DNA of 64,000 nt from Thermaerobacter sp. FW80. Lineage in GTDB: Bacteria > Bacillota > Sulfobacillia > Thermaerobacterales > Thermaerobacteraceae. Numbering within the stretch: the first letter of the stretch is position 1; every line of letters begins with the position of its first letter. Made by a program: the position numbers and the translations under genes. The notes beneath the pieces are model-generated. The model had not been told where the DNA came from, did not search any database, and saw only the letters and a list, made by a program, of their open reading frames with translations. Location of the stretch: positions 1,215,245 to 1,279,244 of the forward strand of contig NZ_CP037895.1 of NCBI RefSeq assembly GCF_004634385.1, read 5' to 3'. Shown piece by piece: positions 40,009-63,067 of the stretch.

Positions 40009-40068
40009 GGCGGGGGGTCGGGCTCGGAGGCGGCCGCCTGCATCGACGGATTCGCGGCCGTGCTCTTC

Positions 40069-40661: not shown

Positions 40662-40853
40662 GAGGCTCCCTCCTCCGTCGCTTGCCAGGCCGGGGCGCAC
40701 CGCCGTCCGGCCCCGGCTCGGATCCGGGGGCCGGGCGTTGGGGCTCCGGGGCCGGTGGGACCCGTCCCGGTGGCCGCGTGGACGGGCGGCCGCGGGGCGG
40801 GACCGTGTGCCGCGCCAGCCGATGATCCTGGGGCGGAGGCACGGTTGCGGCCC

Positions 40854-43698: not shown

Positions 43699-43704
43699 AA
43701 GTTT

Positions 43705-44106
43705 GTGAAAAAGGGACCATTGCTCAACCAGGCCCTCTCCGAAATTATCGCCGGGATGGGTCACGGTCAGTTGCTCGTGATCGGTGACGCAGGTCTCCCA
43801 ATCCCGCACGGACCACGTCGTGTTGATTTAGCGCTGACGTCCGGCGTGCCGTCTTTCTTGGACACCGTCCGGGTGGTGCTTAGCGAACTGCAGGTGGAAG
43901 AAGCACTGATCGCGCAGGAAACGCAACATCAAAACCCAACCGTAGGTGAGAAGGTCATCCGGCTGTTGGCTGAGCATGGCGTTCCTCTGCGAACAATCAC
44001 CCATGACGAGTTGAAGCGACTGTCCCGGGAGTCGGTAGCCGTGGTGCGTACTGGAGAATGCACGCCGTACGCCAACATTATCCTGCGGTCGGGGGTTACT
44101 TTCTGA
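43705..44106 (+). CDS. rbsD: D-ribose pyranase
   Basis: A 133-residue RbsD that interconverts pyranose and furanose forms of ribose so that ribokinase can use it. The landmarks MKKGPLLNQALSEIIAGMGH, DAGLPIPHGPRRVDLAL and the C-terminal VRTGECTPYANIILRSGV, with the catalytic His and Asp region, are all intact. GTG start with a GGGAGGTGA site. Confidence 0.96.
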   Translation: MKKGPLLNQALSEIIAGMGHGQLLVIGDAGLPIPHGPRRVDLALTSGVPSFLDTVRVVLSELQVEEALIAQETQHQNPTVGEKVIRLLAEHGVPLRTITHDELKRLSRESVAVVRTGECTPYANIILRSGVTF

Positions 44107-44108
44107 CC

Positions 44109-45599
44109 ATGTGTGCCGTGGTACTGCGCGCCACCGGCATACGTAAGGTGTTTCCTGGGGTCATTGCTCTCGATGAAGTGGACCTTGATTTACATCAAGG
44201 TGAGATTCACGGCTTGTTAGGCGAAAACGGGGCGGGCAAGAGCACCCTGATCAAGGTGTTAGCGGGCTATCACGTGCCGGACGCAGGGCGGCTTGAATTA
44301 GCTGGGCGGCCGGTAACGTTCCGAGGGCCTCGGGAGGCGCGGGAGGCGGGTGTCGCGACTATCTACCAAGAATTGACCCTTGCCCCGGATATGACGGTAG
44401 CGGAAAACATCTGTCTCGGCCGTGAACCGGTGCGCTTGGGCCGCATTGACCGTGTAGCGATGCGCGACATTGCACAGAGGGCTCTGGCTCGCCTCGGCGT
44501 GGATCTCGATCCAGATGTTCCTGTTCGGCAGCTTGGAGTAGCCGTCCAGCAGATGGTGGAGATTGCCCGTGCGCTGAGTATGGAAAGCCGGGTGTTGATT
44601 CTCGACGAACCGACAGCGGCGCTGACCCCTGCCGAGGTTGAGCGACTCTTCACGATACTCCGTGGGTTGCGTTTACAAGGCGTGGCGATCCTCTACATTA
44701 GCCATCGGCTTGAGGAAGTGCTGAGCCTTTGTGATCGGGTGACGGTGTTGCGCGACGGTCGCGCGGTGGCAACAGTCACCATGGCCGAGGCAGATCTCGA
44801 CGTGTTGATTCGCCTCATGGCAGGCCGATCAATGACCGAACGGTATCCACCAAGGTATTCATCTATCGGCGACGTTGTGCTAGACGTCCGAGGCGCCACC
44901 CGCCAAGGGGTATTCCACGGTGTATCGTTGCAGGTGCGGCGCGGCGAAGTAGTAGGACTCGCGGGACTGCTCGGGGCTGGTCGTACCGAGTTGTTGCGTG
45001 CTATCGCTGGGGCCGACCCCCTCGACGAAGGCGAGGTATGGGTCGAAGGCCGGTGGCTGCCGCCTGGTAATCCCGGGAGGGCACTACGGTGTGGGGTGGC
45101 GCTTGTGCCCGAGGACCGCAAGCGGCAAGGCCTGTTTCTCCAGCGACCCCTGCGCGAGAACCTCACGTTGGCAGCGTTACCGCTACTGTCGCGTGCCGGC
45201 TGGGTGTCGCATCGTGCGGAACGCCAATTGGCCCGGGATTTGGTGCGACGGCTGGCTATTCGCTGCCGAGACGAGGAACAGGTGGTGGCCGAGCTTAGCG
45301 GTGGCAATCAGCAGAAGGCGGTACTGGCTCGCTGGCTTGCAATTAAACCGCGTGTTCTGTTACTCGATGAGCCGACCCGTGGTGTGGACATTAGCGCGAA
45401 AGTGGAGTTGTATACGCTGATCAATTCTTTGGCTGAGGATGGAGTGGCCATTGTCATGGCCTCGTCCGATTTATCCGAGCTACTAGGAATGTGCGATCGG
45501 ATAATGGTGATGGCCGGCGGCCGTATCGTTAAGGAGCTCCCGGCTGCCAACGCCTCGAAGGAGGCGGTGCTGCGTGCGGCTGCAGGAGGGGCTGAATGA
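44109..45599 (+). CDS. rbsA: ribose ABC transporter ATP-binding protein
   Basis: A 496-residue double ATPase of a sugar ABC importer. The first domain has GLLGENGAGKSTLIKVLAG, the signature-like QLGVAVQQMVEIARALS and Walker B VLILDEPTAALT. The second has the usual degenerate loop LAGLLGAGRTELLRAIAG, followed by LSGGNQQKAVLARWL and LLLDEPTRGVDISAK. This is the classic RbsA/MglA layout. The ATG at 44109 is two bases behind the rbsD stop; the stop overlaps rbsC by four bases. Confidence 0.95.
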   Translation: MCAVVLRATGIRKVFPGVIALDEVDLDLHQGEIHGLLGENGAGKSTLIKVLAGYHVPDAGRLELAGRPVTFRGPREAREAGVATIYQELTLAPDMTVAENICLGREPVRLGRIDRVAMRDIAQRALARLGVDLDPDVPVRQLGVAVQQMVEIARALSMESRVLILDEPTAALTPAEVERLFTILRGLRLQGVAILYISHRLEEVLSLCDRVTVLRDGRAVATVTMAEADLDVLIRLMAGRSMTERYPPRYSSIGDVVLDVRGATRQGVFHGVSLQVRRGEVVGLAGLLGAGRTELLRAIAGADPLDEGEVWVEGRWLPPGNPGRALRCGVALVPEDRKRQGLFLQRPLRENLTLAALPLLSRAGWVSHRAERQLARDLVRRLAIRCRDEEQVVAELSGGNQQKAVLARWLAIKPRVLLLDEPTRGVDISAKVELYTLINSLAEDGVAIVMASSDLSELLGMCDRIMVMAGGRIVKELPAANASKEAVLRAAAGGAE

Positions 45600-46555
45600 C
45601 CGTGTTCTCGCCGGTGAAAACGACGGTAGTTGCATCTGAAACTTCCGTGCGAGTACGTCATGCACTGGCTCGCCTGGGACCGTTGTTGGGCCTGGCACTC
45701 ATGTGTGGGCTACTGGCCGTTTTGCATCCGCGGTTCCTAGAAGGAGCGAATCTAGTCAACGTAGCACGGCAAGTCTCGATCCAAGCTATCATCGGTGCCG
45801 GGATGACCGTCGTCATCTTAACAGGCGGTATTGATCTGTCGGTGGGGTCGGTGCTAGCCTTTAGCGGTGCTATAGCGGCGAGGTTGGCCGCGGATGGGTT
45901 GCCCGTGTCGGTTGTCTTGGTTGGAGCTCTCGCAGTTGGCGTGACGTGTGGCGTGCTGAACGGGATACTTGTCGCTTACGGACGCATAGCGCCGTTCATT
46001 GCCACCTTGGGATCGATGACCGCCGTGCGTGGGTTAACCCTGGCTTTCACGGGCGGCCGTCCTATTACGGGCCTCGGTGAGGGTTTTCGTGCGCTGGGTT
46101 CGGAGTGGGCGCCAATCCTGATCATGATCTGTGTCTACGCGGTCGTATGGGCTTTCCTCGGCCACACCCGCGCGGGTCGCTACATCTATGCTGTTGGCTC
46201 AAATGAGGAAGCTGCCTGGGTTTCCGGCATAGCGGTCCGTAAGATACGTCTTCTGGCTTATAGTCTGTCGGGACTCACTGCGGCGCTTGGCGGTGTTGTG
46301 CTGGCAGCACGTCTTAACTCGGCCCAGCCAACAGCGGGTACGGGGTTTGAACTGGATGCCATTGCAGCGGTTGTGCTCGGCGGCACAGGGCTGTCGGGCG
46401 GCGCAGGGGGAGTAGGCGGAACCCTTGTTGGTGCTCTAATCATCGGCGTGGTGAATAACGGTCTTAACCTAATCAACGTCTCGTCCTTCTATCAACAAGT
46501 GGTGAAAGGGCTTGTTATCCTGATAGCCGTGTTGCTTGACCGCGGGCGACGCTAA
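45596..46555 (+). CDS. rbsC: ribose ABC transporter permease
   Basis: A 319-residue polytopic permease with eight to ten hydrophobic segments. It carries the family signatures MTVVILTGGIDLSVGSVLAF, FIATLGSMTAVRGL, AVGSNEEAAWVSGI and VVLGGTGLSGGAGGVGGTLV. It pairs with RbsA and RbsB for high-affinity ribose import. Start overlaps rbsA (ATGA). Confidence 0.95.
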   Translation: MTVFSPVKTTVVASETSVRVRHALARLGPLLGLALMCGLLAVLHPRFLEGANLVNVARQVSIQAIIGAGMTVVILTGGIDLSVGSVLAFSGAIAARLAADGLPVSVVLVGALAVGVTCGVLNGILVAYGRIAPFIATLGSMTAVRGLTLAFTGGRPITGLGEGFRALGSEWAPILIMICVYAVVWAFLGHTRAGRYIYAVGSNEEAAWVSGIAVRKIRLLAYSLSGLTAALGGVVLAARLNSAQPTAGTGFELDAIAAVVLGGTGLSGGAGGVGGTLVGALIIGVVNNGLNLINVSSFYQQVVKGLVILIAVLLDRGRR

Positions 46556-46667
46556 GAAAGCCCACAGGCGAGAGGTTCCACCAGTAAGGAATTCCCAATC
46601 CATTGTTGAGGAGGAGAGGGGGCGGTATGTGACCATATAGCCGAAGGGGACAACATTATCGCTTGTG

Positions 46668-46677
46668 GAACCGGTTC
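46668..46677. promoter_or_regulatory. palindrome upstream of rbsB
   Basis: GAACCGGTTC is a perfect 10-bp palindrome about 40 bp before the rbsB start, inside the 162-bp rbsC-rbsB gap. It is related to, but not identical with, the operator at 41654. A local regulatory site is possible. Confidence 0.3.
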
Positions 46678-47549
46678 TAGGCTGGCAACTTGAAGAAGCA
46701 CGCGGGGAGGGGGAATTGTGGTGCGGAAATGGAAGCAGGCGGCGTTGGGGCTGCTCGCTATTCTGGCTGTGGGTATACTTAGTGCGTGTGGTGGTAACCA
46801 GGGGCAGGCTACCAACGGCCAGATGGGTTCCTCTGATACGACGAATGAATCAAAGGACGACGTAGTCATTGGGCTGGCGATTTCGACTCTGAACAACCCG
46901 TTCTTCGTTGATCTTGAGGCAGGGGCGAAGGAGGCAGCTGAGGCTGCTGGAGCAAATTTGGTCGTCCTTGATGCCCAGGACGACCCGGCCCGGCAGGTAA
47001 GCCAGATTGAGGATCTAGTAACGCAAGGCGTTGACGCCATCGTTATCAACCCCACCGACGGGGACGCCGTTGTCCCAGCGATTGAGAAGGCGAATCAAGC
47101 CAACATCCCTGTGATCACGGTCGACCGGGCGGCAACGGGCGGTAAGGTCGCTACACACATTGCCTCGGATAACGTTGCAGGCGGTCGTATGGCTGGCGAG
47201 TACATCATCGATCTGCTCGGGGGCGAGGGGAAGGTGGTGGAGTTGGAGGGAATTCCTGGAACGTCGGCCGCCCGTGATCGCGGCCAGGGGTTCAACGAGG
47301 TTATTGGTTCGGCTGACGGTATCGAGGTAGTGGCACGGCAACCAGCTGACTTCGACCGCGCCAAAGGAATGAGCGTGATGGAGAACATCCTGCAAGCTCA
47401 GCCGGAGATCGATGCTGTCTTCGCTCACAACGACGAGATGGCGTTGGGAGCACTTGAGGCGATTAAAGCCTCCGGTCGTTCAGGCATCAAAGTTATCGGC
47501 TTTGACGGTACCCCCGACGCCGTAGCGGCCGTTAAAGCCGGTGAACTGG

Positions 47550-48974
47550 TTAGTGTCCCAGGTGGTGGTGGAAATCGCCGGGCTGTAGGGCCCGAGCCTG
47601 GTGGCCCTTGACAAGAAAGGTCACCGGTGGCTCCCCTTCGGGTTGGACAAGAACCGCCATGAAGGGAGGTCCGCTCACCGGTGACCGCTGATTTCAGGAT
47701 GGCACTTCTCGAGCTTCTACGCAAACACCAGGGGGAGCCGGAAGCCGATGCCCTGCGGGAAGGACTACGCTGGCTGGCCCAACAGCTCATGGAGCTCGAG
47801 GTGAGCGAACTCGTTGGCGCTCAGCGGTACGAGCGCACGGAAACGCGCAAGACCTACCGGAACGGCTATCGCTCCCGGCCCTGGGATACCCGCGTGGGCA
47901 CCATCGAGCTGCGGATCCCAAAGCTCCGCCAGGGCAGCTACTTCCCAAGCCTGCTGGAGCCACGCCGGCGGGCGGAACGGGCCCTGGTCGCCGTGGTGCA
48001 GGAGGCTTATGTGCAGGGGGTCAGCACCCGGAAGGTCGACGACCTGGTCCGGGCCTTGGGCCTGGACGGCATCAGCAAGAGCGAGGTGTCGCGACTCTGC
48101 GCGGAACTGGACGAGCGGATGGAGCGCTTCCGCAACCGTCCCCTGGAAGGCGAGTACCCCTACGTTTGGCTCGACGCCAAGCCGATCAAGGTGCGGCAGG
48201 ACCACCGGGTGGTGAACATGGCCGCGGTCATCGCCGTCGGGGTGAAGCGAACCGGGGAGCGCGAGGTGCTGGGCTTTGACGTGGGCGCCGCCGAGACGTA
48301 CGAGTTCTGGCTCGCGTTTCTCCGCAGCCTGGTGGCCCGCGGGCTCAAGGGTGTTCGCCTCGTCATCTCCGATGCCCATGAGGGGCTCAAGCGCGCCATC
48401 AGCGAGGTGCTGGCGGGCGCCAGCTGGCAACGGTGCCGCGTGCACTTCATGCGGAACCTGCTGGCCCGGGTGCCCAAGCACGCCCAGCCGATGGTGGCGG
48501 CCCTGGTGCGGACGATCTTCGCCCAGCCCGACCTGGAGTCCGCCCGGGAGCAGCTGGAACACGTGGCAGCCAACCTGGACCGGCGATTCCCCCAGGCCGC
48601 CGCTCTGCTTCGGGATGCAATGGAGGACGTGCTGGCGTACATGGCCTTCCCGACCGAGCACTGGCGGCGGATCCACTCGACCAACGTTCTGGAGCGGCTG
48701 AATCGGGAACTGGCCCGGCGCTGCGACGTGGTGGGGATCTTCCCGAACATGGCCGCCGCCATCCGCCTGTTGGGAGCTCTTCTCGAGGAGCAACAGGACG
48801 AATGGCTGGTGTCCCGGCGGTACTTCAGCCTGGAGTCGATGGCCAAGATTGACGCGTGTACATCACATGAGGCTACGCGGCTCCATGAAACCGAAGCAAC
48901 CCTGAAGGTGCTGGCCATGTAAGGCGTTCAAACCCGAGGGGAGCGCAAATCACACCACTTGACGGGACGTGACC
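47550..48974. mobile_element. IS256-family insertion sequence in rbsB
   Basis: About 1425 bp containing one transposase. Imperfect terminal repeats share GTCCC and GTGGTG blocks on both ends. AACTGG occurs directly at both junctions (47544-47549 and 48975-48980). The family normally duplicates 8-9 bp; only six are visible here, so the exact ends may be off by a few bases. Confidence 0.85.
47681..48922 (+). CDS. IS256-family (Mutator-type) transposase
   Basis: A 413-residue transposase with intact DDE residues: Asp in YVWLDAKPIKV, Asp in RLVISDAHEGLK and Glu in STNVLERLNRELARR. The N-terminal part (ELVGAQRYERTETRKTYRNG) and SASWQRC-type segment AGASWQRCRVHFMRNLLARV are classic for the family. 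A GTG at 47681 is the most upstream start; an ATG at 47699 is also possible. Apparently functional. Its GC content is higher than that of the rbs genes it interrupts. Confidence 0.95.
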   Translation: MTADFRMALLELLRKHQGEPEADALREGLRWLAQQLMELEVSELVGAQRYERTETRKTYRNGYRSRPWDTRVGTIELRIPKLRQGSYFPSLLEPRRRAERALVAVVQEAYVQGVSTRKVDDLVRALGLDGISKSEVSRLCAELDERMERFRNRPLEGEYPYVWLDAKPIKVRQDHRVVNMAAVIAVGVKRTGEREVLGFDVGAAETYEFWLAFLRSLVARGLKGVRLVISDAHEGLKRAISEVLAGASWQRCRVHFMRNLLARVPKHAQPMVAALVRTIFAQPDLESAREQLEHVAANLDRRFPQAAALLRDAMEDVLAYMAFPTEHWRRIHSTNVLERLNRELARRCDVVGIFPNMAAAIRLLGALLEEQQDEWLVSRRYFSLESMAKIDACTSHEATRLHETEATLKVLAM

Positions 48975-49138
48975 AACTGGCGGCCACTGTGGCCCAGCAG
49001 CCCAGAAAGATGGGTATGCTGGCCATAGAGTACGCACTGAAGGTGATCAAGGGCGAACAGGTTGAGTCGTTCGTACCTGTGGAGTTGCAACTGGTGACCC
49101 AGTAAGGATTGGTTCATGTCCATAGGGGAAAGGCAACG

Positions 49139-49175
49139 CCGCACGCCACGCGTCATCGTGGCGTGCGGCCCTTTT
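49139..49175 (+). terminator. intrinsic terminator of the rbs operon
   Basis: A perfect 12-bp stem (CCGCACGCCACG at 49139-49150 pairing with 49157-49168) closes a six-base loop and is followed by CCCTTTT. It lies 33 bp after the rbsB stop. Confidence 0.92.
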
Positions 49176-49875
49176 GAGCCTGCTTCACGAACCCAGGTAT
49201 TTCCGCAGGACTGCAGCCCCGAGAGGTTCAGTCAAATTGACCGTGATGGTTGAGAACTCTTGAGAAATAAACGGCTTTCCTTGGCACATTGAGGCCGCAT
49301 ATCACTAGGGTACCCGGTGAGGTTCGTGCCGGAACGTGGCACCGGCTGTAGCCGCCCGGCAGCCGCAGGCCCACGCCTTGAAGGCTTCGTAGGCCTGTCC
49401 GACCAGCTCGCTCCGGGCGGGGTAGGATCCGCCGTTCAAGCCCACCGCCACCGCGTGCACCTACGGGAGGTCGTGGAGCTCGTCCTCGTAGCTTACATCG
49501 GGGTGGAAGGCTTGGTTCCACCGCGACAGGCCGTATCCCACCTGCGTTAGCTCCACGGACACAGCCCCTGGTGCCACCTACACTGCCACCTACACTGACG
49601 CCAGATACTGTCGGCGCATGTGAGCGCTCCACCGACAGCCAGGATCAGACTTGCCATCATCGCACGTCGATGCCAGGACATTCGACGGAAGGACCCAATG
49701 TCGGGTCCGCCCCATTTGCCCCTCCACTGGGGAGCAAGACCGCTGGCGACACCCTCGCCGCGGCAGTTCCCTCGTCTTGTGCACAACATCTCGCACCGCT
49801 TCAGGCCAGGGAGGGAATGGCGCCAAATCAGCTCTGGTCTCCCCACGCCGCACAGCACGAACCAACGACACCCCT
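49176..49875. pseudogene. degenerate region with possible gene relic
   Basis: No intact gene is present. On the reverse strand, from about 49560 down, ordered segments such as SVELTQVGYGLSRWNQAFHP, then GGSYPARSELVGQAYEAFKA and ITVNLTEPLGAAVLRKYLGS appear in different frames with stop codons between them. This looks like the decayed remains of a coding sequence that I cannot identify. Confidence 0.35.
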
Positions 49876-50997
49876 TCATCGCACCCCCTCAAAGTAGACG
49901 CGGGGACCATCCCAGAACGAGGACACGGCGATTATGCCGCCCCTTACCGCATCGGACGCGACCGACCAGCACACATTCCCCTCTTTAGCGTATCCAGGCA
50001 AAATGGTCTCGAAACCGCCAAGTAGGGGATCAGGGATGACGCCGCAGGAATCCGTAGCTCGAACGCTATTGGCATCGAGATAGTCGAAATGCACGTCGAT
50101 GAACGAACCGGAACTATCGGTACCGACGTATGTCACTCGGACACGAGCCATCACATACTGGTATCCAGGGTCGGGCGGATCGTTAAACATGGATTCTTCA
50201 GAAATCTCAGGCCATGCGTCTGGATCGATGCTGAGGATCTTGACCATCCACTTATCCCCGACGGGAAACTCCGTACCGATTGGAGCAGGATTCTTCGGGC
50301 TACCTAACGGCGGATTGACTTCATTTCTCTTGAAAGAGTAGGCGCGATAGGCTACTGCAGCCGCCTGTCCACGTGTCAGCTCCATATCGGGTCGGAAGTA
50401 TCGCCACACAAAGTCGTCGTATCCTTTCATAATGTTGGCCCGCGCAACGGCGCCGACAGCATCTGCGAACCAGCTGTCCGCGGGAACGTCATCAAATGGT
50501 TCCGACGCTGGAGCGAGGTTCAAGGCACGTTGGATGATCACAGCAGCTTCCTTTCTCGTAATGTTTTTGTCATAACCAAAAGTTCCATCTGTGTATCCCA
50601 GTATGAAGCCCGCGTTGTAAGCCTTTACAACGTATTCGTATAGCTTCTGCCCTTCGGTGACATCCAGGAAAAATTCTCTCCCAAGAGGCAATTCTGTTCC
50701 CGTAGCCCGTTCAACAGCTAGAACAAGCATTTTTGCGAAGGCCGCACGAGTCACCCTGGCACCTGGGCGGAAGGTCCCGTCAGGAAATCCGTCGACTAGC
50801 CCGACGTCATGTGCCTTTAAGATGTCGCCTGTCAGCACGCCATCGACATCAGGAAACTCGCCGTGGCTGGCCTGGACGTAAGATACATGCGAAGCCAGTA
50901 TGGCGACTACTAGGGCTGTTACTACGATACCTGCCAAGCCTTGAGCGCATCCGAATTCACGCAAAAATCTCCGTATACAATCTGATAACCGTGCCAT
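49876..50997 (-). CDS. secreted SLH-domain protein
   Basis: A 373-residue surface protein. An N-terminal hydrophobic helix (LAGIVVTALVVAILASHVSY) acts as a signal. Three SLH domains follow: FPDVDGVLTGDILKAHDVGL, FLDVTEGQKLYEYVVKAYNA and FDDVPADSWFADAVGAVARA, each ending in a DGTF or FRPDMELTRGQ type repeat. SLH domains anchor proteins to pyruvylated secondary cell wall polymers. The C-terminal 130 residues form a beta-rich domain (YQYVMARVRVTYVGTDSSGS) resembling DUF4352-type modules. Base composition is much lower in GC than the backbone, suggesting transfer. Confidence 0.88.
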   Translation of the reverse strand: MARLSDCIRRFLREFGCAQGLAGIVVTALVVAILASHVSYVQASHGEFPDVDGVLTGDILKAHDVGLVDGFPDGTFRPGARVTRAAFAKMLVLAVERATGTELPLGREFFLDVTEGQKLYEYVVKAYNAGFILGYTDGTFGYDKNITRKEAAVIIQRALNLAPASEPFDDVPADSWFADAVGAVARANIMKGYDDFVWRYFRPDMELTRGQAAAVAYRAYSFKRNEVNPPLGSPKNPAPIGTEFPVGDKWMVKILSIDPDAWPEISEESMFNDPPDPGYQYVMARVRVTYVGTDSSGSFIDVHFDYLDANSVRATDSCGVIPDPLLGGFETILPGYAKEGNVCWSVASDAVRGGIIAVSSFWDGPRVYFEGVR

Positions 50998-51388
50998 CCG
51001 AGAACAGCCTCCTCTTCATCCTCTTCAACAGTCTGCGTAGCTAGCATTCGCGTCGTATTGGGAGGATCCTTCTCGCTGAGGAGCCTGCAGGACAGCAAGC
51101 GTGGGCGGAATGTTGCCTTGTTTAGGCCGTTTGGCGGCCTGCCGTTCGGGCCAACCCACAAGCCCCACAAGCTCGGTAGCCTTCCCATGTCGGCAAGATC
51201 ACGGCACCGCCCAGCCAGTCTTTCCCGTTCCACGCCGTCCGGTCCCATCCTGTACGCCGCCGATCGTGCGTGGGATGCGGCGGAGCACCGCATCTTTCCG
51301 CTTGAGTTGGGTCGATTCCGAATTCGCTGCACCAACGTTGACACCAGGGAACGGTCCGCGGACACTGGCGATGCGAGGTGAGGGGCTC
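50998..51388. other. intergenic region, no feature seen
   Basis: The stretch between the SLH gene and the first toxin-antitoxin pair shows no gene, repeat or clear promoter. Confidence 0.5.
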
Positions 51389-51710
51389 GTGGCGATCCTC
51401 CGCGTTGGTCGCCGGGGGCAGGTGACCCTGCCGGTCGAGATCCGTCAGGCCCTCGGCGTTGCCGAAGGGCGGAAAATGGTCTGCTACGTCAACGAGGCCG
51501 GCGACCGGCGACATCGTCCTGCACCCGCTGCCTGCGCCGCGGTCGATCGACGAAGTCGCAGGGGCCCTGAAGGATACGGGGGGCCGGTCGCTGGCGGACG
51601 CCCTGGAACGGGCCGCCACCGAGTACGCCGAAGCCTGGCGCGAGAGCCAGCCCAGGCCGCAAGCGGCCGTCGCCTGGCGAGACGCAACGCCGGCGAGGGA
51701 CGCCTCGTGA
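51389..51710 (+). pseudogene. AbrB-type (VapB) antitoxin, frameshifted by a 7-bp tandem duplication
   Basis: The N-terminal half (VAILRVGRRGQVTLPVEIRQ, then ALGVAEGRKMVCYVNEAGD) is an AbrB swapped-hairpin DNA-binding domain. The remainder (GDIVLHPLPAPRSIDEVAGA onward) is in another frame. Between them CGGCGAC is perfectly duplicated (51499-51505 and 51506-51512); removing one copy gives NEAGDIVLHPLP, matching the intact paralogue at 54325. The C-terminal toxin-binding part therefore cannot be made by normal reading. GTG start at 51389 behind GAGGTGAGG. Confidence 0.85.
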
Positions 51711-52114
51711 TGGAGCGGTGGCTTCTGGATACGAACCTCATCATCTACCTGCTGGCTCCCGATCAGGCGCCGAGCGATTCGATTCGCGAGCGGGTCCGGG
51801 GTCTTTTTGAGCGGGCGGCGCGGGGCGAGGCGACCCTGGTGGTGACGCCCGTCGTGGTGTTCGAGACGTTGCTGGTCCTCATGGGATTCGACCTGCACCC
51901 CCGCGAAGCGGCCCGCCTCGTCGAGCGGGTGCTCGCCTGGACCGGCGTGGAGTGCGAGGACGAGGCGCACGTCCTGTATGCCCTGAGCCGGCTCTCGAAG
52001 AAACTCGATTTCGTGGGCGGCTACCTGGCCTCGCGGTCCCATGCCGAGCCCTACCGGGTCGCCTCCAACGACCGCGACCTCAGGCGCCTGGGAGCAAGGA
52101 TGGCGGAAAGGTGA
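51710..52114 (+). CDS. PIN-domain (VapC-type) ribonuclease toxin
   Basis: A 134-residue PIN nuclease with acidic residues in place: Asp in WLLDTNLIIYLLAP, Glu in VVVFETLLVLMGF, Asp in KKLDFVGGYLAS and Asp in ASNDRDLRRLG. VapC toxins cleave RNA, often tRNA. The ATG overlaps the antitoxin stop (TGATG), so expression should be coupled. Because the antitoxin upstream is frameshifted, either the toxin is weakly translated, a second antitoxin neutralises it, or the module is decaying. Confidence 0.88.
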   Translation: MERWLLDTNLIIYLLAPDQAPSDSIRERVRGLFERAARGEATLVVTPVVVFETLLVLMGFDLHPREAARLVERVLAWTGVECEDEAHVLYALSRLSKKLDFVGGYLASRSHAEPYRVASNDRDLRRLGARMAER

Positions 52115-52418
52115 GAAGGCCGTCGGAGGAACGGTCTCCGGCAGACGCCCGGCCGCCGACGATTGGAGCGGGCATCGCCGGCGGTACCACGACAGGGGCG
52201 GGCTCGTAGGCTAGACAGCGGACGTCCCGGGGCCCGTCCGCACGACCGGCGCGACGGCGCGACCCGGCAGGTCCTGGGGACGTTCTCGCCGAACAAAGGT
52301 TTGGGAAGCGCATCGGAGGTGCCGACGTGATGGACGGCGAGGACCACCGCCGCCAGCGGGCAGGGAAGCGCCCGGGCTGCGCTGCCGCGGCCAGGGCCGG
52401 CGGCCCGGGAGGCGGGCG
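52115..52418. other. intergenic region, no feature seen
   Basis: About 300 bp with no convincing gene or repeat. The ribosome site of the following gene lies at its end. Confidence 0.4.
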
Positions 52419-53780
52419 ATGACGGGGCGGGCACCGGCCGCGGGGCGGCACGCCGGTGGTCGCGACGGGCGGGTGGTGCGGGTCAGCCGGCAGGCGGCCG
52501 CCAACTTCTTGCTGGAACGTCTGGGCTTGCTGGGGCGTGCCACGCCGGCCCCAGTGCCTGCGGTTCGACCCCCGTCCGCGGTGCCGTCGGCTCCCGGTCC
52601 GGCCGACGGCGGTGACCCCGCCGGGGGTGGCGCAAGACTTTCGGATGCGGCGGCCGGGACCCGTCGCCGCACGGCCACCGCCGGGGACGTGCTCGCCGTC
52701 CTGACCCAGCTCGGTGCGGTGCAGCTGGATCCGGTCAACGTGGTGGAACGCAACCACCACCTGGTCTTCTTCAACCGCCTGCCAGGCTACCGTCCCGCCC
52801 TGTTCGAGGAACTCTACGACGAGGGCCAGGTGTTTGAGGCCTGGTGCCACGCCCGCTGCGCCCTGCCCGTGAGCTGGTATCCCGCCTTCCGGCCGGCTTT
52901 CCGGACGGTGTCGGCCGACCGGCTCGACCCCGCCGTGCGGGAGTGGATGGGGCGAATCCTGGAGATGGTGGCGACGGGGGGCGCTGTGTCCCCGCGGCGG
53001 ATCGACTCGGGCGAGCGGGTCATCGGCTACTGGGACCGGGACGTGCCGGCCACCCGGGCCGTCAGCCAAGCCCTGCAGCACCTGTGGGAGGAAGGCCGAC
53101 TGGTGGTCCGCTCCCGGCGGGGCAACGAGCGCACCTACGATCTGCCCGAGCGGGTCTTGCCGAAGGAGGTGCTGGTCCGGCAACTGGACGCCGGCGAAGC
53201 CGCAGAGCAGCGAATCCGGCACTACGCCCAGGCCATGGTCCTGTTCGACCCCGGGGACCCGTATTTCGGCTGGCACCGCTGGCCTGCGCCCCGGCGGCGG
53301 GAGGAGGCGGAGCGGCGGGTTGCTGTCGGGGAGTGGGTGCGCGTCGAGATCGAGGGTGTCAAGCGGCCCTACTACGCGGCGGCGGAGGACCGCGAGCGGC
53401 TGGAATCCGCCGGCGAGCTACCGGAGTCCCGCAGCGCCAGGTTCCTCCCGCCCCTGGACAACCTGCTCTGGCGCCGGAGCCGGGTGCGTGACCTGTTCGG
53501 CTTCGACTATACGTGGGAGATCTACATCCCGGCCGCCAAACGGCGCTACGGGCCGTACACCATGCCGGTGTTGTACCGGAACCGCCTGGTGGGCCGCATC
53601 GACCTGGAGTTCCGTCAGGTCACCCGCACCCTCGTCGTGCACCGCCTCGCTCTCGAGCCGGCGTACGAGCGCTGGAACCGGTCCATCCAGCGGGCAGTGG
53701 CGGCGGAGGTGGAGCGGCTGGGGCGGTATCTCGGTGCGGCGAGCCTCGAGAGGACGCCGCTCGTTGCCAAGCCGTTCTAG
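52419..53780 (+). CDS. YcaQ-like winged-helix DNA glycosylase family protein
   Basis: A 453-residue member of the HTH_42 (YcaQ/AlkX) family. E. coli YcaQ unhooks interstrand crosslinks and alkylated bases. Landmarks are LGAVQLDPVNVVERNHHLVF, the QVFEAWCHARCALPVSWYPA block, LDNLLWRRSRVRDLFGFDYT, WEIYIPAAKRRYGPYTMPVL and VGRIDLEF. An N-terminal segment (ASRQAAANFLLERLGLLGRA-like) and a Pro/Ala-rich insert at about 45-90 precede the core. ATG 52419 has a GGGAGGCGGG site. DNA repair glycosylase activity is inferred from the family. Confidence 0.88.
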   Translation: MTGRAPAAGRHAGGRDGRVVRVSRQAAANFLLERLGLLGRATPAPVPAVRPPSAVPSAPGPADGGDPAGGGARLSDAAAGTRRRTATAGDVLAVLTQLGAVQLDPVNVVERNHHLVFFNRLPGYRPALFEELYDEGQVFEAWCHARCALPVSWYPAFRPAFRTVSADRLDPAVREWMGRILEMVATGGAVSPRRIDSGERVIGYWDRDVPATRAVSQALQHLWEEGRLVVRSRRGNERTYDLPERVLPKEVLVRQLDAGEAAEQRIRHYAQAMVLFDPGDPYFGWHRWPAPRRREEAERRVAVGEWVRVEIEGVKRPYYAAAEDRERLESAGELPESRSARFLPPLDNLLWRRSRVRDLFGFDYTWEIYIPAAKRRYGPYTMPVLYRNRLVGRIDLEFRQVTRTLVVHRLALEPAYERWNRSIQRAVAAEVERLGRYLGAASLERTPLVAKPF

Positions 53781-53884
53781 ACGCCACGCCGCCCACCGCC
53801 GTAGGGCGAGAGTAGCGACCACGTCCGAGAGCTCCAGCACGGACGGTTCACCCGATTCCCCCCAGGAACCGCTTTCGCGCAGTG

Positions 53885-54151
53885 TCACGGCTGGCATCGG
53901 GCGGACCACCATCCGCCTCGGCCGCCCCGCTGCAGGTCGCCCACAGGGCGCCCACCCTGAACGCACCGGCGTCGATCTGGGGGAAATCCAGAAGGAACCC
54001 ATCGTGAGAGCACGCGGGCCTCAAACTGTCCGGGGCCCCGCGCTCCCAGAATCAGCCCATCGCCAGGCTTGACGCCCACAGCCTTCCGAAAGGACGCCGG
54101 CAGCGCGAGCCGGCCGAGGCCCTGGAGCCGTGCGGCCGCCACGGCTCGCAC
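53885..54151 (-). CDS. solitary AbrB/SpoVT-like DNA-binding domain, possibly a remnant
   Basis: The first 50 residues (AARLQGLGRLALPASFRKAV, then GVKPGDGLILGARGPGQFEA) are a clear AbrB swapped-hairpin motif. The remaining 38 residues have no family character. There is no PIN gene beside it on this strand and no convincing ribosome site before GTG 54151. It may be an orphan antitoxin or a transition-state-type regulator whose end has decayed. Confidence 0.45.
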   Translation of the reverse strand: MRAVAAARLQGLGRLALPASFRKAVGVKPGDGLILGARGPGQFEARVLSRWVPSGFPPDRRRCVQGGRPVGDLQRGGRGGWWSARCQP

Positions 54152-54324
54152 CCGTTTCCCCGCCCTGCGCCGATCATCCCATGGCCCGCGGTGCCGATCT
54201 TGGCTGCCGCGGCCGCTCAGGGACGATTGGAATCTGACGATGATGCATATACTCCGAACAGAAAGCGACTTGTTTGAGTCTCATCCAGCGAGGTGGTATC
54301 GTGGGGACGCGAGGTGATCGCGCC

Positions 54325-54660
54325 GTGGCCGTGGTGAAGATCCTCCAGAGGGGGCAGATGACCCTGCCCAAGGCGATCCGCGAGCGCGTCGGTCTGGAGG
54401 AGGGGGACGACGTGCTCGTGTACGTCAACGGCGAGGGCGAGATCGTGCTGTACCCGCTGCCGCGGCCGCGGAGTCTCAAGGAGCTGGGCAGCGTGCTGAA
54501 GATCGATCGGCCCGTGGACACGGAGGAGGCCCGGGACGCGATCCGTGCATCCCGGGCTCGGCGGTGGGCCGAAAAGCATGGCCTGGACGGGCCGGGCGCA
54601 CAGGCGCTGGCGCAGGCGGCCGCGGGGCGGGAACCGGTCGAGGACCGGGTGAGGGAATAG
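54325..54660 (+). CDS. AbrB-type (VapB) antitoxin, intact
   Basis: A 111-residue antitoxin. Residues 1-45 (VKILQRGQMTLPKAIRERVG, then LEEGDDVLVYVNGEGEIVL) form the AbrB DNA-binding domain; the helical, charged C-terminus should wrap the PIN toxin. GTG 54325 lies behind GAGGTGAT, the same arrangement as in the frameshifted paralogue at 51389, which supports both start choices. Four bases separate it from the toxin gene. Autorepression by the complex is usual for this family. Confidence 0.88.
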   Translation: MAVVKILQRGQMTLPKAIRERVGLEEGDDVLVYVNGEGEIVLYPLPRPRSLKELGSVLKIDRPVDTEEARDAIRASRARRWAEKHGLDGPGAQALAQAAAGREPVEDRVRE

Positions 54661-54663
54661 CCC

Positions 54664-55101
54664 GTGAGCACCTGGTTGCTCGACGCCAACGTCATCGTGT
54701 ATTGCCTGGCTCGCGACCACATCCTGGCGAACCCGCAGGCCGCTCACCTTCACGAGCGCTTCGAGGCGCTCGACCGGGCCTTGGAGCGAGCCATCGCCGC
54801 GGGGCACCGGCTGCTCGTCACGCCCGTCGTGGTGGCCGGGGCGCTCTGTGTCCTAGAAGGCGCCTACCGCTACCGTCCTGCCGAGGCGGTCGCGGCCCTT
54901 CTCCAGTTCATCCGCACCCCTGAGGTCGACGTGGAAGACGAAGAGGCCGTCCTGGCCGGACTCCGCCACCATGCGGCAGGGCAGCTCGACTTCGTGGATG
55001 GGTACCTTGCGGCCAGGGCGTCGGGGGACGAGGACGTCCACTTGCTGACGAACGACCGCGGCATCGCAAGGCGCACCGGGGCGCGCGTTGTGCAGTGGTA
55101 A
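54664..55101 (+). CDS. PIN-domain (VapC-type) ribonuclease toxin
   Basis: A 145-residue PIN nuclease paired with the antitoxin just upstream. Key acidic residues are visible: Asp in TWLLDANVIVYCLARD, Asp in GQLDFVDGYLAAR and Asp in LLTNDRGIARRTG. The position usually held by Glu is in VVVAGALCVLEGAY, where the Glu is shifted by several residues relative to the paralogue at 51710 (VVVFETLL), so catalytic competence should be checked. GTG start at 54664. Confidence 0.87.
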   Translation: MSTWLLDANVIVYCLARDHILANPQAAHLHERFEALDRALERAIAAGHRLLVTPVVVAGALCVLEGAYRYRPAEAVAALLQFIRTPEVDVEDEEAVLAGLRHHAAGQLDFVDGYLAARASGDEDVHLLTNDRGIARRTGARVVQW

Positions 55102-55202
55102 GCCCTGGCCCGGGTGGCCCCCCGCGTTCTTTGGCCGGCACCAGGTCGAGGGACCGGTCCCGGCCAACCTGCTTTAACGTCCGCAGGGTGCGGGGGACGG
55201 GG

Positions 55203-55211
55203 TGCTACAAT
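55203..55211 (+). promoter_or_regulatory. extended -10 promoter element for hemE
   Basis: TGCTACAAT is an extended -10 (TGN plus TACAAT), 36 bp upstream of the hemE start. No good -35 is visible, as is common for extended -10 promoters. Confidence 0.5.
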
Positions 55212-55246
55212 GGCAGTAGATCCGTCGACGGCCAGGAGGGGTCCCG

Positions 55247-56311
55247 TTGACGCCCAGCCAGCGCTTCCTCGCCGCCTGCCGGCGGCAGCCCGTGGACCGG
55301 ACGCCCGTCTGGTTCATGCGCCAGGCGGGCCGCATCTTCCCGGAGTTCCGGGCGCTGCGGCGGCACTACGGGTTCGAGGAGCTCATGCAGCACCCGGACC
55401 TCTGCGCCGAGATCACCGTGATGCCCGTGGAGCGGCTGGGGGTCGACGCGGCCATCCTCTTCGCCGACATCATGACGCCGCTCAAGCCCCTGGGCGTCGA
55501 CTACCGCATCGAGCCCGGGGTGGGGCCGGTGGTGGGCCGGCCGCTGGCGTCGGCCGCGGACCTGGGGCGGCTGCGCCGGTTCGACCCCCGGGACGAACTG
55601 GCCCCGGTGCTGGAGACGGTGCGGCTGGTGCGGCGGGCGCTGGGCGAGCGGGTGCCGCTGATCGGCTTCGCCGGCGCGCCCTTCACCCTGGCCTGCTACC
55701 TGGTCGAGGGGCGCCCGTCGCGGGAGTTCCATCGCACCCGGGCGCTGATGTACGGCGATCCCGCCTTCTGGCACGGGCTGATGAAGCGGCTGGCGGAGAC
55801 GGTGCTGGAGTACCTGCGGGCCCAGGTGGAGGCCGGCGTCCAGGCGGTGCAGCTGTTCGACTCCTGGGTGGGCGGCCTCGGGCCCGCGGCGTACCGCCGG
55901 TTCGTCCTGCCCTACTCGCGCCGCGTGCTCGAGGGCCTGGCGGACCTCGGGGTGCCACGGATCCACTTCGGAACGGGGACCGCGGCCCTGCTGCCGCTGA
56001 TGGCCGAGGCCGGGGCGGAGGTGGTCGGCGTCGACTGGCGGGTCGACCTGGACCAGGCCTGGGCGGCCATCGGTCCGGAGCGGGCGATCCAGGGCAACCT
56101 CGATCCGGCGGCCCTGTTGGCGCCCTTCGCCCAGGTGGAGGAGCTGGCTCGCGACGTGCTGCGCCGGGCGGCGGGACGGCCCGGGCACATCTTCAACCTG
56201 GGCCACGGCGTGTTGCCCGAGACCCCCGTCGACCACCTGCGACGGCTCGTGGAGCTGGTGCATCGGGTGACGGAGCGGCCGGTGCAGCCGGCGCCCACGG
56301 CGGGGTCGTGA
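55247..56311 (+). CDS. hemE: uroporphyrinogen decarboxylase
   Basis: HemE converts uroporphyrinogen III to coproporphyrinogen III in heme synthesis. The 354-residue protein has the two family signatures, PVWFMRQAGRIFPEFRALR near the N-terminus and LIGFAGAPFTLACYLVEG in the middle, plus the catalytic Asp region IMTPLKPLGVDY and the C-terminal FNLGHGVLPETPVDHLRRLV. The TTG start at 55247 has an AGGAGGGG site. No other heme gene is adjacent, so it is not part of a hemEHY cluster here. Confidence 0.96.
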   Translation: MTPSQRFLAACRRQPVDRTPVWFMRQAGRIFPEFRALRRHYGFEELMQHPDLCAEITVMPVERLGVDAAILFADIMTPLKPLGVDYRIEPGVGPVVGRPLASAADLGRLRRFDPRDELAPVLETVRLVRRALGERVPLIGFAGAPFTLACYLVEGRPSREFHRTRALMYGDPAFWHGLMKRLAETVLEYLRAQVEAGVQAVQLFDSWVGGLGPAAYRRFVLPYSRRVLEGLADLGVPRIHFGTGTAALLPLMAEAGAEVVGVDWRVDLDQAWAAIGPERAIQGNLDPAALLAPFAQVEELARDVLRRAAGRPGHIFNLGHGVLPETPVDHLRRLVELVHRVTERPVQPAPTAGS

Positions 56312-58855: not shown

Positions 58856-58868
58856 GGCCGGTTCGTCC
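58856..58868 (-). repeat. GGACGAACCGGCC motif copy 14
   Basis: Exact 13-mer on the reverse strand, in the divergent intergenic region between the TSUP gene and dnaE. Confidence 0.75.
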
Positions 58869-59011: not shown

Positions 59012-62000
59012 ATGCAGCCCTTCGTCCACCTGCACGTCCACAGCGAGTACAGCCTGCTGGACGGCGCCGCCCGCGTCGGCGAGCTGGCCGCCCGGGCGGC
59101 GGAGCTGGGCATGCCCGCCCTGGCCCTGACGGACCACGGCGTCATGTACGGGGCCATCGACTTCTACAAGGCGTGTAAGCAGCACGGCATCAAGCCCATC
59201 ATCGGCTGCGAGCTCTACCTGGCGCGGCGTACCCGCCACGACCGCGAGCCCAAGGTGGACGACCAGTCCTACCACCTGCTGGCCCTGGCGCAGAACGAGA
59301 CGGGGTACCGCAACCTGATCAAGATCGTCTCCCGGGCCTACGCCGAGGGGTTCTACTACAAGCCGCGGGCCGACAAGGAGCTGCTGGCCGAGCACAGCGA
59401 GGGCCTGATCGTCACGTCGGGGTGCATCGGCAGCGAGATCCCGCGGCTGCTCCTGGAGGGGCGGGACGAAGAGGCGCTCCGCGCCGTGCGCTGGTACCTG
59501 GAGGTCTTCGGCGACCGCTTCTACTTCGAGATCCAGGACCACGGCCTGCCCGAGGAGCGGCGGGCGTACGCCCGCATCCTGGAGCTGGCCCGGCGGTTCG
59601 ACGTGCCCGTGGTGGCGACCAACGACGTCCACTACCTGCACCGCGAGGACGCCGCCGCCCACGAGGTGCTGCTCTGCATCCAGACCGGCAAGACCCTCGA
59701 CGACCCCAGCCGCATGCGCTTCGAGGGGTCGGAGTTCTACCTCAAGAGCCCGGAGGAGATGGCGACGGTCTTCCGCGACGTGCCCGAGGCCCTGGCGAAC
59801 ACGGTCAAGCTGGCCGAGCGCTGCGAGCTGGAGTTCGAGTTCGGCCGGTTCCTCCTGCCCCACTACGAGGTGCCGGAGGGGCACGACGCCGCCTCCTACC
59901 TGCGCTACCTGTGCGAGACCAAGCTGCCCGAGCGCTATCCCGACGCCGGCAGCGAGGTGTGGGACCGGCTCAACCACGAGCTCGAGGTCATCACCCGGAT
60001 GGGTTACCCGGCCTACTTCTTGATCGTGTGGGATTTCGTCGACTACGCCCGCCGCAACGGGATCGCCGTGGGGCCCGGCCGGGGCTCGGCGGCGGGCAGC
60101 CTGGTGGCCTACGTCCTCGGGATCACGGACATCGACCCGCTGCGCTACAACCTGCTCTTCGAGCGGTTCCTGAACCCCGAGCGGGTGACCATGCCCGACA
60201 TCGACATCGACTTCGACGACCACCGGCGGGACGAGGTCATCGACTACGTGGTCCGCAAGTACGGGCGCGACCGGGTGGCCCAGATCATCACCTTCGGCCG
60301 CATGCTGGCGCGGGCGGTGATCCGCGACGTGGGGCGGGTCATGGGCCTGCCCTACGGCGAGGTGGACAAGATCGCCAAGATGGTGCCGGCCCAGCTGGGC
60401 ATCACCTTGGACCAGGCGCTGGAGGCGAGCCCGGAGCTCCGGCAGGCCTACGAGCAGCAGCCGGTGGTCCGCCAGCTGGTGGACATGGCCCGCAAGCTGG
60501 AGGGGATGCCCCGCCACGCCTCGGTCCACGCCGCCGGCGTGGTGATCGGCCGCGACCCCCTGATGGAGCACGTGCCCCTGCAGCGGATGCAGGACGGCTC
60601 CACCGTCACCCAGTTCCCCATGACCACCCTGGAGGAGCTGGGCCTCCTGAAGATGGACTTCCTCGGCCTCCGCACCCTGCACGTGATCCAGGAGACCGAG
60701 GCGCTGATCAACGCCACCGGGGCGCGGGACGTCTTGGCGGACGAACCCGGCCCCGGCGCGGCGGACCCCGGGCCCTCCCCGGCGGGCGACGCGGCCAGCG
60801 GCGCGACCGGCGACGCCGCCGGCGGGCCGCAGGGCGACGCCGCTGGCCGCCCGACGGGCGATGCCCGTAGCGGGCCGATGGGCGATGGCAGCGGGCCGAC
60901 GGGCGGCGTCGGCGATGGGCTGACGGGAGGCGGCGGCCGCCGCCGGGGTGAAGGGGCCGGTCCTCGGCGGGCCGCCGGATCCGATCCGGCCCACGGCCTG
61001 GCGGTCGCGGCCCGGGGCCCGGCGATGGCCGGGGACGGCCCCACGCCCACCGCCCCCGCCCGTCCCTTCCGGGTCAAGGACATCCCCCTGGACGACCGGG
61101 CCACCTTCGAGGCCATGAGCCGGGGCGAGACCGCGGCCATGTTCCAGGTGGAGTCGTCGGGCTTCACCCAGATGCTGCGGTCCCTCAAGCCGTCCAGCAT
61201 CGAGGACCTGATCGCCGCCGTCGCCCTCTTCCGCCCGGGCCCGCTGGGCAGCGGCATGGTGGACGACTTCATCAAGCGCAAGCACGGCCAGGTGCCGGTG
61301 GAGTACCCGCACCCGTGGCTCGAGCCGATCCTGAAGGAGACCTACGGGACCATCGTCTACCAGGAGCAGGTCATGCAGATCGCCAGCGTGATGGCGGGCT
61401 TCACGCTGGGCGAGGCCGACCTGTTGCGGCGGGCCATGGGCAAGAAGAAGCCCGAGGAGATGCAGAAGCAGCGGGAGAAGTTCCTGGCCGGGGCGGCGGC
61501 CAAGGGCATCGACCGCCAGCTGGCCGAGCGCATCTTCGACCTGATGGAGTACTTCGCCGGCTACGGGTTCAACAAGAGCCACTCCGCCGCCTACGGCTAC
61601 CTGGCCTACGTCACCGCCTACCTCAAGACCCACTACCCGGCGCCCTACATGGCCGCCACCCTGAGCAGCGTGATGAGCAACGCCGACCGGGTGGCGGAAT
61701 ACATCGGCGAGTGCCGGCGCCTCGGCATCCCGGTGCTGCCGCCGGACATCAACGAGAGCCAAGCCCGCTTCACCGTGGTGCCCGACCCCCGGGGGCCGGG
61801 CGGCCAGGCGATCCGCTACGGTCTGGCGGCGGTGAAGAACGTGGGCTTCGGCGCCATCGAGTCCATCGTGGCCGCGCGGGAGGCGGGGGGGCCCTTCCGC
61901 TCCCTGGACGACTTCTGCCGCCGGGTGGACCTGCGCCAGGTGAACCGGCGGGCCCTGGAGAGCCTGATCAAGGCCGGCGCCTTCGACTGCCTGGGCCACC

Positions 62001-63067
62001 CCCGGGCGCGGCTCCTGGCTGGCCTCGAGGAGGTCATGGAGCGGGCCCAGCGCTGGCAGAGGGAGCGGGAGACGGGCCAGGTCTCGTTGCTGGACCTGAC
62101 CGCCGCGCTGGCGGGGGCGGGATCCGCGACGGGCGGCCGGCAGCGGGCCGCCGAGGGGACGGGCGGTGGCCCCGGGGCTGCCACCGGGGAGCCGGTGGGC
62201 CGCGACGGGGCGGCCCCTGCCGGGGGGCGGGGGCGGAACGCCGCGGCCGCGGCCGGTTCGTCCGGACGAACTGGCCCCGGGCAGGCTGCGGTCGACGGGG
62301 CGACCGGCGCCGCCGGGGGCGGGGCGACCGGATCCCCGGCGGTGGCACCGGCGGGGTCGAATGGCCCCGCGGCCGATGCGGCTGCCGCCCTGTGGGGGGA
62401 CGACGTCACCCCGCTGCCGCCCGTGGACGAGTGGCCCCCGAACCGGAAGCTGGCCATGGAGAAGGAGGTCCTGGGCCTCTACCTGTCGGGCCATCCGCTG
62501 GCCCACTACGAGCGGGAGCTGGCCCGGCGGGTGACGGCCACCACCCGCCAGCTGGCGGAGCGGGAGGACGGCGCCCGGGTCCAGGTGGGCGGCCTGGTCC
62601 AGGGGGTGCGGCGCATCACCACCCGCGGCGGCGAGTTGATGGCCTTCGTGCAGCTGGAGGACCTGGAGGGTTCGGTGGAGGTGGTGGTCTTCCCGCGGAC
62701 CTACGCCGAGGCGGCGGAGGCCCTGCAGGAGGACGCGGTCGTCGTCGTCCGGGGCCGGGTCGACCGCCGGGAGGAAGAGGAACCCCCCAAGGTGGTGGCG
62801 GAGGCGATCTGGCCCCTGGTGACGGGCAAGCGGCTGGTGGTGGCGCTGCCGGCGGGCGGCGACGCCGAGGCCGTCGAGGGCGTGCTGGCCCAGGTGCGCG
62901 GCGCCTGCCAGCGGTACCCGGGCACCTCGCCGGTGGTCCTGGTCTTCCCCGGGCGCCAGCACGCCCTGCAGGTCGACGCCCAGTACTGGGTGACGCCGCG
63001 GCCCGAGCTCCTGCAGGACCTGGCCCGGGTGGTGGGCGACGACGGGTTCTACCTGGACGACCACTGA
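59012..63067 (+). CDS. dnaE: DNA polymerase III subunit alpha (DnaE)
   Basis: The replicative polymerase, 1351 residues. A PHP domain opens the protein (VHLHVHSEYSLLDGAARVGE, ALALTDHGVMYGAIDF). The polymerase active site follows, with GPGRGSAAGSLVAYVLGI, the Asp pair in MPDIDIDFDD (about residue 395) and the third Asp in LKMDFLGLRTLH (about 549). Helix-hairpin-helix and OB-fold parts close the C-terminus (VQVGGLVQGVRRITTRGGEL). Two Gly/Ala-rich inserts, at about residues 570-685 and 1030-1130, explain a length some 200 above normal; the first has 8-residue repeats like TGDAAGGP. ATG 59012 has a GGAGGGG site. Confidence 0.97.
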   Translation: MQPFVHLHVHSEYSLLDGAARVGELAARAAELGMPALALTDHGVMYGAIDFYKACKQHGIKPIIGCELYLARRTRHDREPKVDDQSYHLLALAQNETGYRNLIKIVSRAYAEGFYYKPRADKELLAEHSEGLIVTSGCIGSEIPRLLLEGRDEEALRAVRWYLEVFGDRFYFEIQDHGLPEERRAYARILELARRFDVPVVATNDVHYLHREDAAAHEVLLCIQTGKTLDDPSRMRFEGSEFYLKSPEEMATVFRDVPEALANTVKLAERCELEFEFGRFLLPHYEVPEGHDAASYLRYLCETKLPERYPDAGSEVWDRLNHELEVITRMGYPAYFLIVWDFVDYARRNGIAVGPGRGSAAGSLVAYVLGITDIDPLRYNLLFERFLNPERVTMPDIDIDFDDHRRDEVIDYVVRKYGRDRVAQIITFGRMLARAVIRDVGRVMGLPYGEVDKIAKMVPAQLGITLDQALEASPELRQAYEQQPVVRQLVDMARKLEGMPRHASVHAAGVVIGRDPLMEHVPLQRMQDGSTVTQFPMTTLEELGLLKMDFLGLRTLHVIQETEALINATGARDVLADEPGPGAADPGPSPAGDAASGATGDAAGGPQGDAAGRPTGDARSGPMGDGSGPTGGVGDGLTGGGGRRRGEGAGPRRAAGSDPAHGLAVAARGPAMAGDGPTPTAPARPFRVKDIPLDDRATFEAMSRGETAAMFQVESSGFTQMLRSLKPSSIEDLIAAVALFRPGPLGSGMVDDFIKRKHGQVPVEYPHPWLEPILKETYGTIVYQEQVMQIASVMAGFTLGEADLLRRAMGKKKPEEMQKQREKFLAGAAAKGIDRQLAERIFDLMEYFAGYGFNKSHSAAYGYLAYVTAYLKTHYPAPYMAATLSSVMSNADRVAEYIGECRRLGIPVLPPDINESQARFTVVPDPRGPGGQAIRYGLAAVKNVGFGAIESIVAAREAGGPFRSLDDFCRRVDLRQVNRRALESLIKAGAFDCLGHPRARLLAGLEEVMERAQRWQRERETGQVSLLDLTAALAGAGSATGGRQRAAEGTGGGPGAATGEPVGRDGAAPAGGRGRNAAAAAGSSGRTGPGQAAVDGATGAAGGGATGSPAVAPAGSNGPAADAAAALWGDDVTPLPPVDEWPPNRKLAMEKEVLGLYLSGHPLAHYERELARRVTATTRQLAEREDGARVQVGGLVQGVRRITTRGGELMAFVQLEDLEGSVEVVVFPRTYAEAAEALQEDAVVVVRGRVDRREEEEPPKVVAEAIWPLVTGKRLVVALPAGGDAEAVEGVLAQVRGACQRYPGTSPVVLVFPGRQHALQVDAQYWVTPRPELLQDLARVVGDDGFYLDDH
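62251..62263 (-). repeat. GGACGAACCGGCC motif copy 15, half of a palindrome
   Basis: Exact 13-mer on the reverse strand in the second low-complexity insert of dnaE, immediately abutting a forward GGACGAACTGGCC (62264-62276). Confidence 0.75.
62264..62276 (+). repeat. variant motif GGACGAACTGGCC, second half of the dnaE palindrome
   Basis: Differs from the consensus at one base and is head-to-head with copy 15, making a 26-bp palindrome with a single mismatched position. Confidence 0.65.

Follow-up and report, generated by a model that had tools for sequence, protein, structure and literature searches.

How does a nearly perfect 26-bp palindrome come to lie inside dnaE, and what is the short dispersed motif of which it consists? 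The question is raised by the window, i.e. the whole stretch of 64,000 nucleotides analysed here, which corresponds to C1:1215245-1279244 of Thermaerobacter sp. FW80, an organism whose 3.04-Mb genome is assembled in 3 contigs. Counts are based on sampled stretches and on genome-wide pattern searches in which the reversed motif served as control. FW80 (G000) was compared with three congeners, G001, T. marianensis (G002) and G003, and orthologous sites were compared at aligned positions in syntenic 200-kb blocks. Gene names were read from translations and the placement of the motif relies on the gene calls of our own codon-usage gene caller.

The palindrome in dnaE and its history

The dnaE gene occupies positions 59012-63067 of the forward strand and encodes a DNA polymerase III alpha subunit of 1351 amino acids, whose translation aligns over nearly its full length, at up to ~60% identity, with open reading frames of other bacteria. 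Two copies of the motif face each other at 62251-62276 with one mismatch, exactly in the sequence and at the coordinates given by the original prediction. The left arm (62251-62263, forward strand) is an exact copy of the 13-mer GGCCGGTTCGTCC and encodes the residues A-G-S-S of DnaE. The right arm (62264-62276), GGACGAACTGGCC, is a one-mismatch copy of the motif on the reverse strand (GGCCAGTTCGTCC) and encodes G-R-T-G. The arms pair at 12 of 13 positions, with a sole mismatch (C to T) that belongs to the right arm. The pair is spelled with rare codons, namely GGT (8.5% of glycine codons), GGA (6.1%), CGA (2.4% of arginine codons) and ACT (1.1% of threonine codons). Together with the tetrapeptide encoding bias described below, these codons rule out an accident of codon use. 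Such an accident had been expected to reveal itself in relatives encoding the same residues without the motif; T. marianensis instead encodes SGRTG with an intact right-arm copy.

DnaE of FW80 possesses two long Gly/Ala/Pro-rich linkers (60735-61085 and 62118-62400) whose length is very variable among Thermaerobacter species. The first contains a diverged copy of the motif, GGACGAACCCGGCC (60739-60752, reverse strand), encoding DEPGP. The second, of low complexity and with bounds that are approximate since they derive from protein alignment, harbours the pair; it is long and Gly/Ala-rich in FW80 and T. marianensis and much shorter in G001 and G003. The earlier view that the pair sits where the protein tolerates it is supported, and the pair is probably neutral for the polymerase.

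The state of the two arms differs across the genus. At the position of the pair, T. marianensis carries GGCCGGTGCGTCG immediately followed by GGACGAACCGGCG, so that its left arm is two substitutions off the motif and its right arm is intact (GGACGAACCGGC). In G001 and G003, the shorter linker contains GGTGGAACCGGC, two changes off the right arm, and the alignment shows no counterpart of the left arm in either species. From these differing states we infer that the arms change independently by point mutation within an unstable linker. Insertion or duplication of the motif as a single unit, which the original prediction suggested and for which it advised aligning the linker across relatives, is not supported: the arms of T. 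marianensis stand at zero and two substitutions, G001 and G003 keep a right-arm-like remnant, and one substitution in place is the commonest state of alignable orthologous sites that differ elsewhere. The pair may be ancestral in the lineage of FW80 and T. marianensis and have decayed subsequently, or it may still be in the course of assembly there. Folded as a hairpin or cruciform, it reaches -28.3 kcal/mol (z -2.0), modestly better than shuffled sequences. The cruciform originally envisaged is thus possible on paper; binding of a dimer, proposed along with it, need not be invoked, since the motif almost always occurs as a single copy.

The motif and its inverted pairs in the genome

Within the window, the 13-mer occurs in 12 exact copies where a Markov model expects ~0.03, and 55 matches are found when up to two mismatches are allowed, against 8.2 in shuffled sequences. 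In addition to the left arm in dnaE, exact copies are located at 3040-3052 (reverse strand) and at 58856-58868 (forward strand, 5' of dnaE). Others are at 7385 and 18784 (reverse), 19478 and 20699 (forward), 25420 and 26515 (reverse), and 28380 and 36988 (forward). The copy at 38384-38396 (reverse) is the last one before ~17 kb without any copy of the 12-mer GCCGGTTCGTCC. The dispersion claimed from the window extends to the whole genome, which contains 353 exact 13-mers and a single match to the reversed control. The 12-mer is present in 525 copies in FW80 (3 for the reversed control) and in 274, 429 and 280 copies in the three congeners, corresponding to a density of ~1 per 5.6-10 kb, and it ranks first among all 12-mers in 200-kb samples of the four species. 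The sister genus contains 33 copies (6 for the control), and 146 more distant genomes carry 0-10 each, at or near background and similar to their own controls. Samples of 67-118 kb from the sister genus and two order-level relatives revealed no comparable k-mer that might constitute a dialect of the motif. The core of the motif has sharp bounds and is devoid of flank signal; sequences one mismatch away from it are also enriched, in particular those altered at 13-mer positions 1, 4, 7 and 10. A variant with an extra C, GGACGAACCCGGC, to which the diverged copy at 60739-60752 in the first DnaE linker belongs, is over-represented too (GACGAACCCGGC, 12 copies in the FW80 block for 0.26 expected) and might be accepted as an alternative form.

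Genes harbour copies of the motif in either orientation and in several reading phases, and further copies lie between genes: 30 of 114 sites are intergenic according to the codon-usage gene caller, which assigns ~20% of the sequence to this category. The motif accounts for 20 of the 36 occurrences of the tetrapeptide AGSS (0.15 expected from codon usage), for 35 of 50 DEPA (3.9 expected) and for 40 of 65 RFV (10.5 expected). When orthologous positions are aligned, 54.5% of comparisons show the 12-mer intact, versus 24.5% for in-frame flanking 12-mers (per-genome sign-flip, P < 0.005), and the most frequent state of alignable orthologous sites that differ is a single in-place substitution. The constraint on the motif acts at the DNA level. 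Forward copies are distributed flatly along 1.93 Mb and both strands are balanced in blocks of uniform GC skew (22/19, 10/9, 12/16 and 12/14). Uptake sequences are sometimes said to be evenly spaced; the copies of the motif are not, their spacing being random (CV ~1). Two couples of same-orientation copies have identical flanks, at C1:553821 and C1:555162 (1.3 kb apart) and at C1:619928 and C1:620743 (0.8 kb apart), pointing to local duplications that carried the motif along.

The two smaller contigs, C2 (77,620 bp) and C3 (8,456 bp), are apparent plasmids. Their genes recur at offsets of ~51.7 kb and ~6.9 kb, respectively, as if a circular molecule had been assembled beyond its own starting point, and C2 contains a ParB-like gene as well as several repeated transposase-like genes. 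The overlap and the ParB-like gene are the grounds for regarding these contigs as plasmids. Their 58.6 kb of unique sequence, of lower GC content (0.67), contain no copy of the 12-mer where 10.4 are expected. The 12-mer is also absent from positions 39000-55500 of the window, where ~3 copies are expected; GC content drops to 0.60-0.65 across 40-52 kb, a low-GC island in which the deficit (2-3 copies expected) is weak, and both features suggest acquired DNA.

Other head-to-head pairs, for which a genome-wide search had been advised, do exist. In FW80, GGTTCGTCC is followed by GGACGAAC within 30 bases at 8 sites, and 5 of these abut exactly. Copy density, with the 9-mer density extrapolated from one 204-kb FW80 block, predicts ~0.07 abutting pairs (P ~1e-8) and ~2.1 pairs at spacings of 1-30, where 3 were counted. 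Two of the five abutting pairs are located in coding DNA, one in dnaE and the other in an NAD-synthase-like gene, and three are intergenic, between tgt and yajC, in a convergent region and in a divergent region; one intergenic abutting pair separates two motA/motB-like genes. At C1:2428421, a 40-bp perfect palindrome between convergent genes is centred on an abutting motif pair. T. marianensis carries two abutting pairs, and the tgt-yajC pair is found in this species as well; it is missing from G001 and G003, in which no abutting pair with full 9-mers was found. Tail-to-tail pairs amount to 10 sites in the four genomes, with spacers mostly of 10-15, and fold as hairpins. Same-orientation pairs within 30 bases were not found in the blocks, the ~0.9 expected being a small number. 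The window contains a second inverted pair at 55575-55602, with one mismatch per arm and a spacer of 4, and a pair with the same spacer is present at the equivalent position of the G003 block.

A candidate uptake tag and its alternatives

The sequences that label DNA for uptake, DUS and USS, belong to the core genome, occupy permissive places, are conserved above their surroundings, are missing from recently acquired DNA and form inverted pairs acting as terminators (PMC2397512, PMC1852404, PMC3630211). They are further characterised by an excess of inverted copies at short distance (PMC1852404). By analogy, we propose with a probability of roughly 0.55 that GCCGGTTCGTCC is a DUS/USS-like, genus-specific self-recognition tag of Thermaerobacter, which would be read by the type IV pilus, ComEA and ComEC and of which the inverted pairs would be a by-product. 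A surface receptor, most likely a type IV minor pilin, would prefer tagged DNA; the pilus would draw this DNA in, ComEA would hold it and a single strand would enter the cell through ComEC, after which homologous recombination would copy in the donor allele together with its tag. Such an uptake bias would maintain the tag wherever the sequence is permissive, in linkers, at gene ends and in intergenic DNA, in either orientation, at a balance between mutation and drive. Abutting inverted pairs are favoured over other spacings and some of them may have been co-opted as intergenic RNA hairpins. The dnaE pair would then represent two tag copies in a disordered linker, acquired via point changes and linker growth and simply tolerated.

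The machinery required is present. ComEC, ComEA and N-methylated pilins are found in all four Thermaerobacter species, and ComEA adjoins ComEC in FW80. The type IV pilus operon of FW80, in which the receptor would be encoded, lies at C1:1675-1687 kb (positions 3438-15198 of C1:1672001-1692000) and comprises genes for a PilT-like ATPase, a prepilin peptidase, PilB, PilC, pilins, a weak PilM match, PilN and a T2SSM-type protein. This inventory discriminates weakly, because bacteria that show no uptake specificity commonly possess ComEC, ComEA and pili as well. Across the congeners, the two ATPases are 71-92% identical, and the pilins and PilN ~28-46%. No conserved receptor was identified among the pilins compared between species, since they diverge to this extent while the motif is invariant. 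This divergence, larger than an invariant tag would suggest, speaks against the uptake tag, and so does a density several-fold lower than in most genomes with DUS or USS, where copies number in the thousands. The absence from plasmid-like contigs, which have the lower GC content of 0.67, also fits a chromosome-organising motif.

If the uptake tag is real, its implications reach beyond the genus. Uptake sequences are considered to be limited to Pasteurellaceae and Neisseriaceae (PMC5031613), and uptake is called sequence-independent in almost all other species (PMC12040237). T. marianensis is described as a monoderm without outer-membrane machinery (PMC11448272). In the open-access literature, neither natural competence of Thermaerobacter nor such a motif in this genus was found to be reported; the printed motif was matched once, incidentally, in a Caulobacter paper. 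The motif looks like the uptake labels of Neisseria and Haemophilus, which were previously not known from this bacterial branch. Odds that we judge to be even attach to the broader proposal that sequence-specific natural transformation arose independently a third time, in a deep-branching monoderm lineage of Bacillota whose pilus-borne receptor would prefer GCCGGTTCGTCC-labelled DNA. A convergent uptake tag outside the Proteobacteria, in cells without an outer membrane, would open a route to understanding why uptake specificity evolves. Addition of the tag would also provide a practical handle for transforming a thermophile genus for which, to our knowledge, there is no genetic system.

Among the alternatives, the one that survives best, though we hold it to be improbable, regards the motif as the binding site of a protein organising or segregating the chromosome, such as a nucleoid factor, a nucleoid-occlusion protein or an SMC-type loader. 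The restriction to the chromosome, the conserved position and the short size, appropriate for a protein site, agree with this reading. However, known segregation sites are either few, like parS and matS, or strongly biased by strand or domain, like KOPS, whereas the forward copies of the motif show no trend along 1.93 Mb and the strands are balanced inside a single replichore. Slightly less plausible still is a HIP1-like iterated element, or the target of a methyltransferase or repair enzyme, kept by mutation bias and not by uptake. HIP1 of cyanobacteria (GCGATCGC), a highly iterated short oligomer of coding DNA, shows that genome-wide oligomers without proven function exist, and copy pattern alone cannot separate drive from selection. 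Yet HIP1 is palindromic, a single copy of the Thermaerobacter motif is asymmetric and the motif is conserved above its flanks; as to enzyme targets, restriction sites are usually avoided rather than enriched.

We give little credence to the idea that function resides in the abutting palindrome (as a dimer operator, a cruciform or a terminator), of which single copies would be half-sites. Its appeal lies in the frequency of abutting pairs, far above chance, and in the intergenic location of several of them (tgt-yajC in two species, the motA/motB-like genes and the convergent region with the 40-bp perfect palindrome), but the 5 abutting pairs of FW80 face ~525 12-mers, two of these pairs lie in coding DNA, G001 and G003 have none with full 9-mers, and the tgt-yajC pair is missing from both. 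A Chi-type recombination hotspot read by AddAB/RecBCD would likewise be dispersed, chromosomal and mostly genic; Chi sites are nevertheless 5-8 bases long and strongly oriented with replication, and the 12 bases of the motif and above all its balance between strands, which argues strongly against this reading, make it very unlikely. The strong replication-strand bias of Chi and KOPS is not found for the motif. Last, a small REP/MITE-like mobile element inserting or duplicating as a 13-bp or 26-bp unit would accommodate the presence of the pair in the longer form of a dnaE linker whose length differs by species, but it is largely refuted by the lack of arrival by insertion with a conserved body, ends or flanks, by orthologous sites in in-place substitution states, by the different states of the T. 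marianensis arms and by the right-arm-like sequence of the short G001 and G003 linkers.

Comparison with known systems

As a candidate uptake tag, the Thermaerobacter motif shares with Chi and KOPS the status of an oligomer dispersed over the chromosome, and with HIP1 that of a highly iterated short oligomer found in coding DNA. Chi and KOPS are short and strand-biased, whereas the motif is unbiased; HIP1, compared here from general knowledge, is denser, and palindromic where the motif is asymmetric. The likeness to the USS of Pasteurellaceae goes further, since these are dispersed in both orientations, occur in genes and show an excess of opposite-strand copies at short distance (PMC1852404). 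They differ by a 9-bp core with AT-rich extended flanks, against a 12-bp core without flank signal in Thermaerobacter. With respect to the DUS of Neisseriaceae, whose receptor is ComP, the motif is of unrelated sequence, GC-rich, without A/T flanks and several times sparser, and its host is a monoderm member of the Bacillota in which no ComP homologue was identified. The DUS are, like the Thermaerobacter motif, asymmetric 10-12-mers in hundreds to thousands of copies, restricted to one family, located in the core genome and at permissive places, rare in acquired DNA and arranged in inverted pairs that form hairpins (PMC3630211, PMC2397512, PMC1852404).
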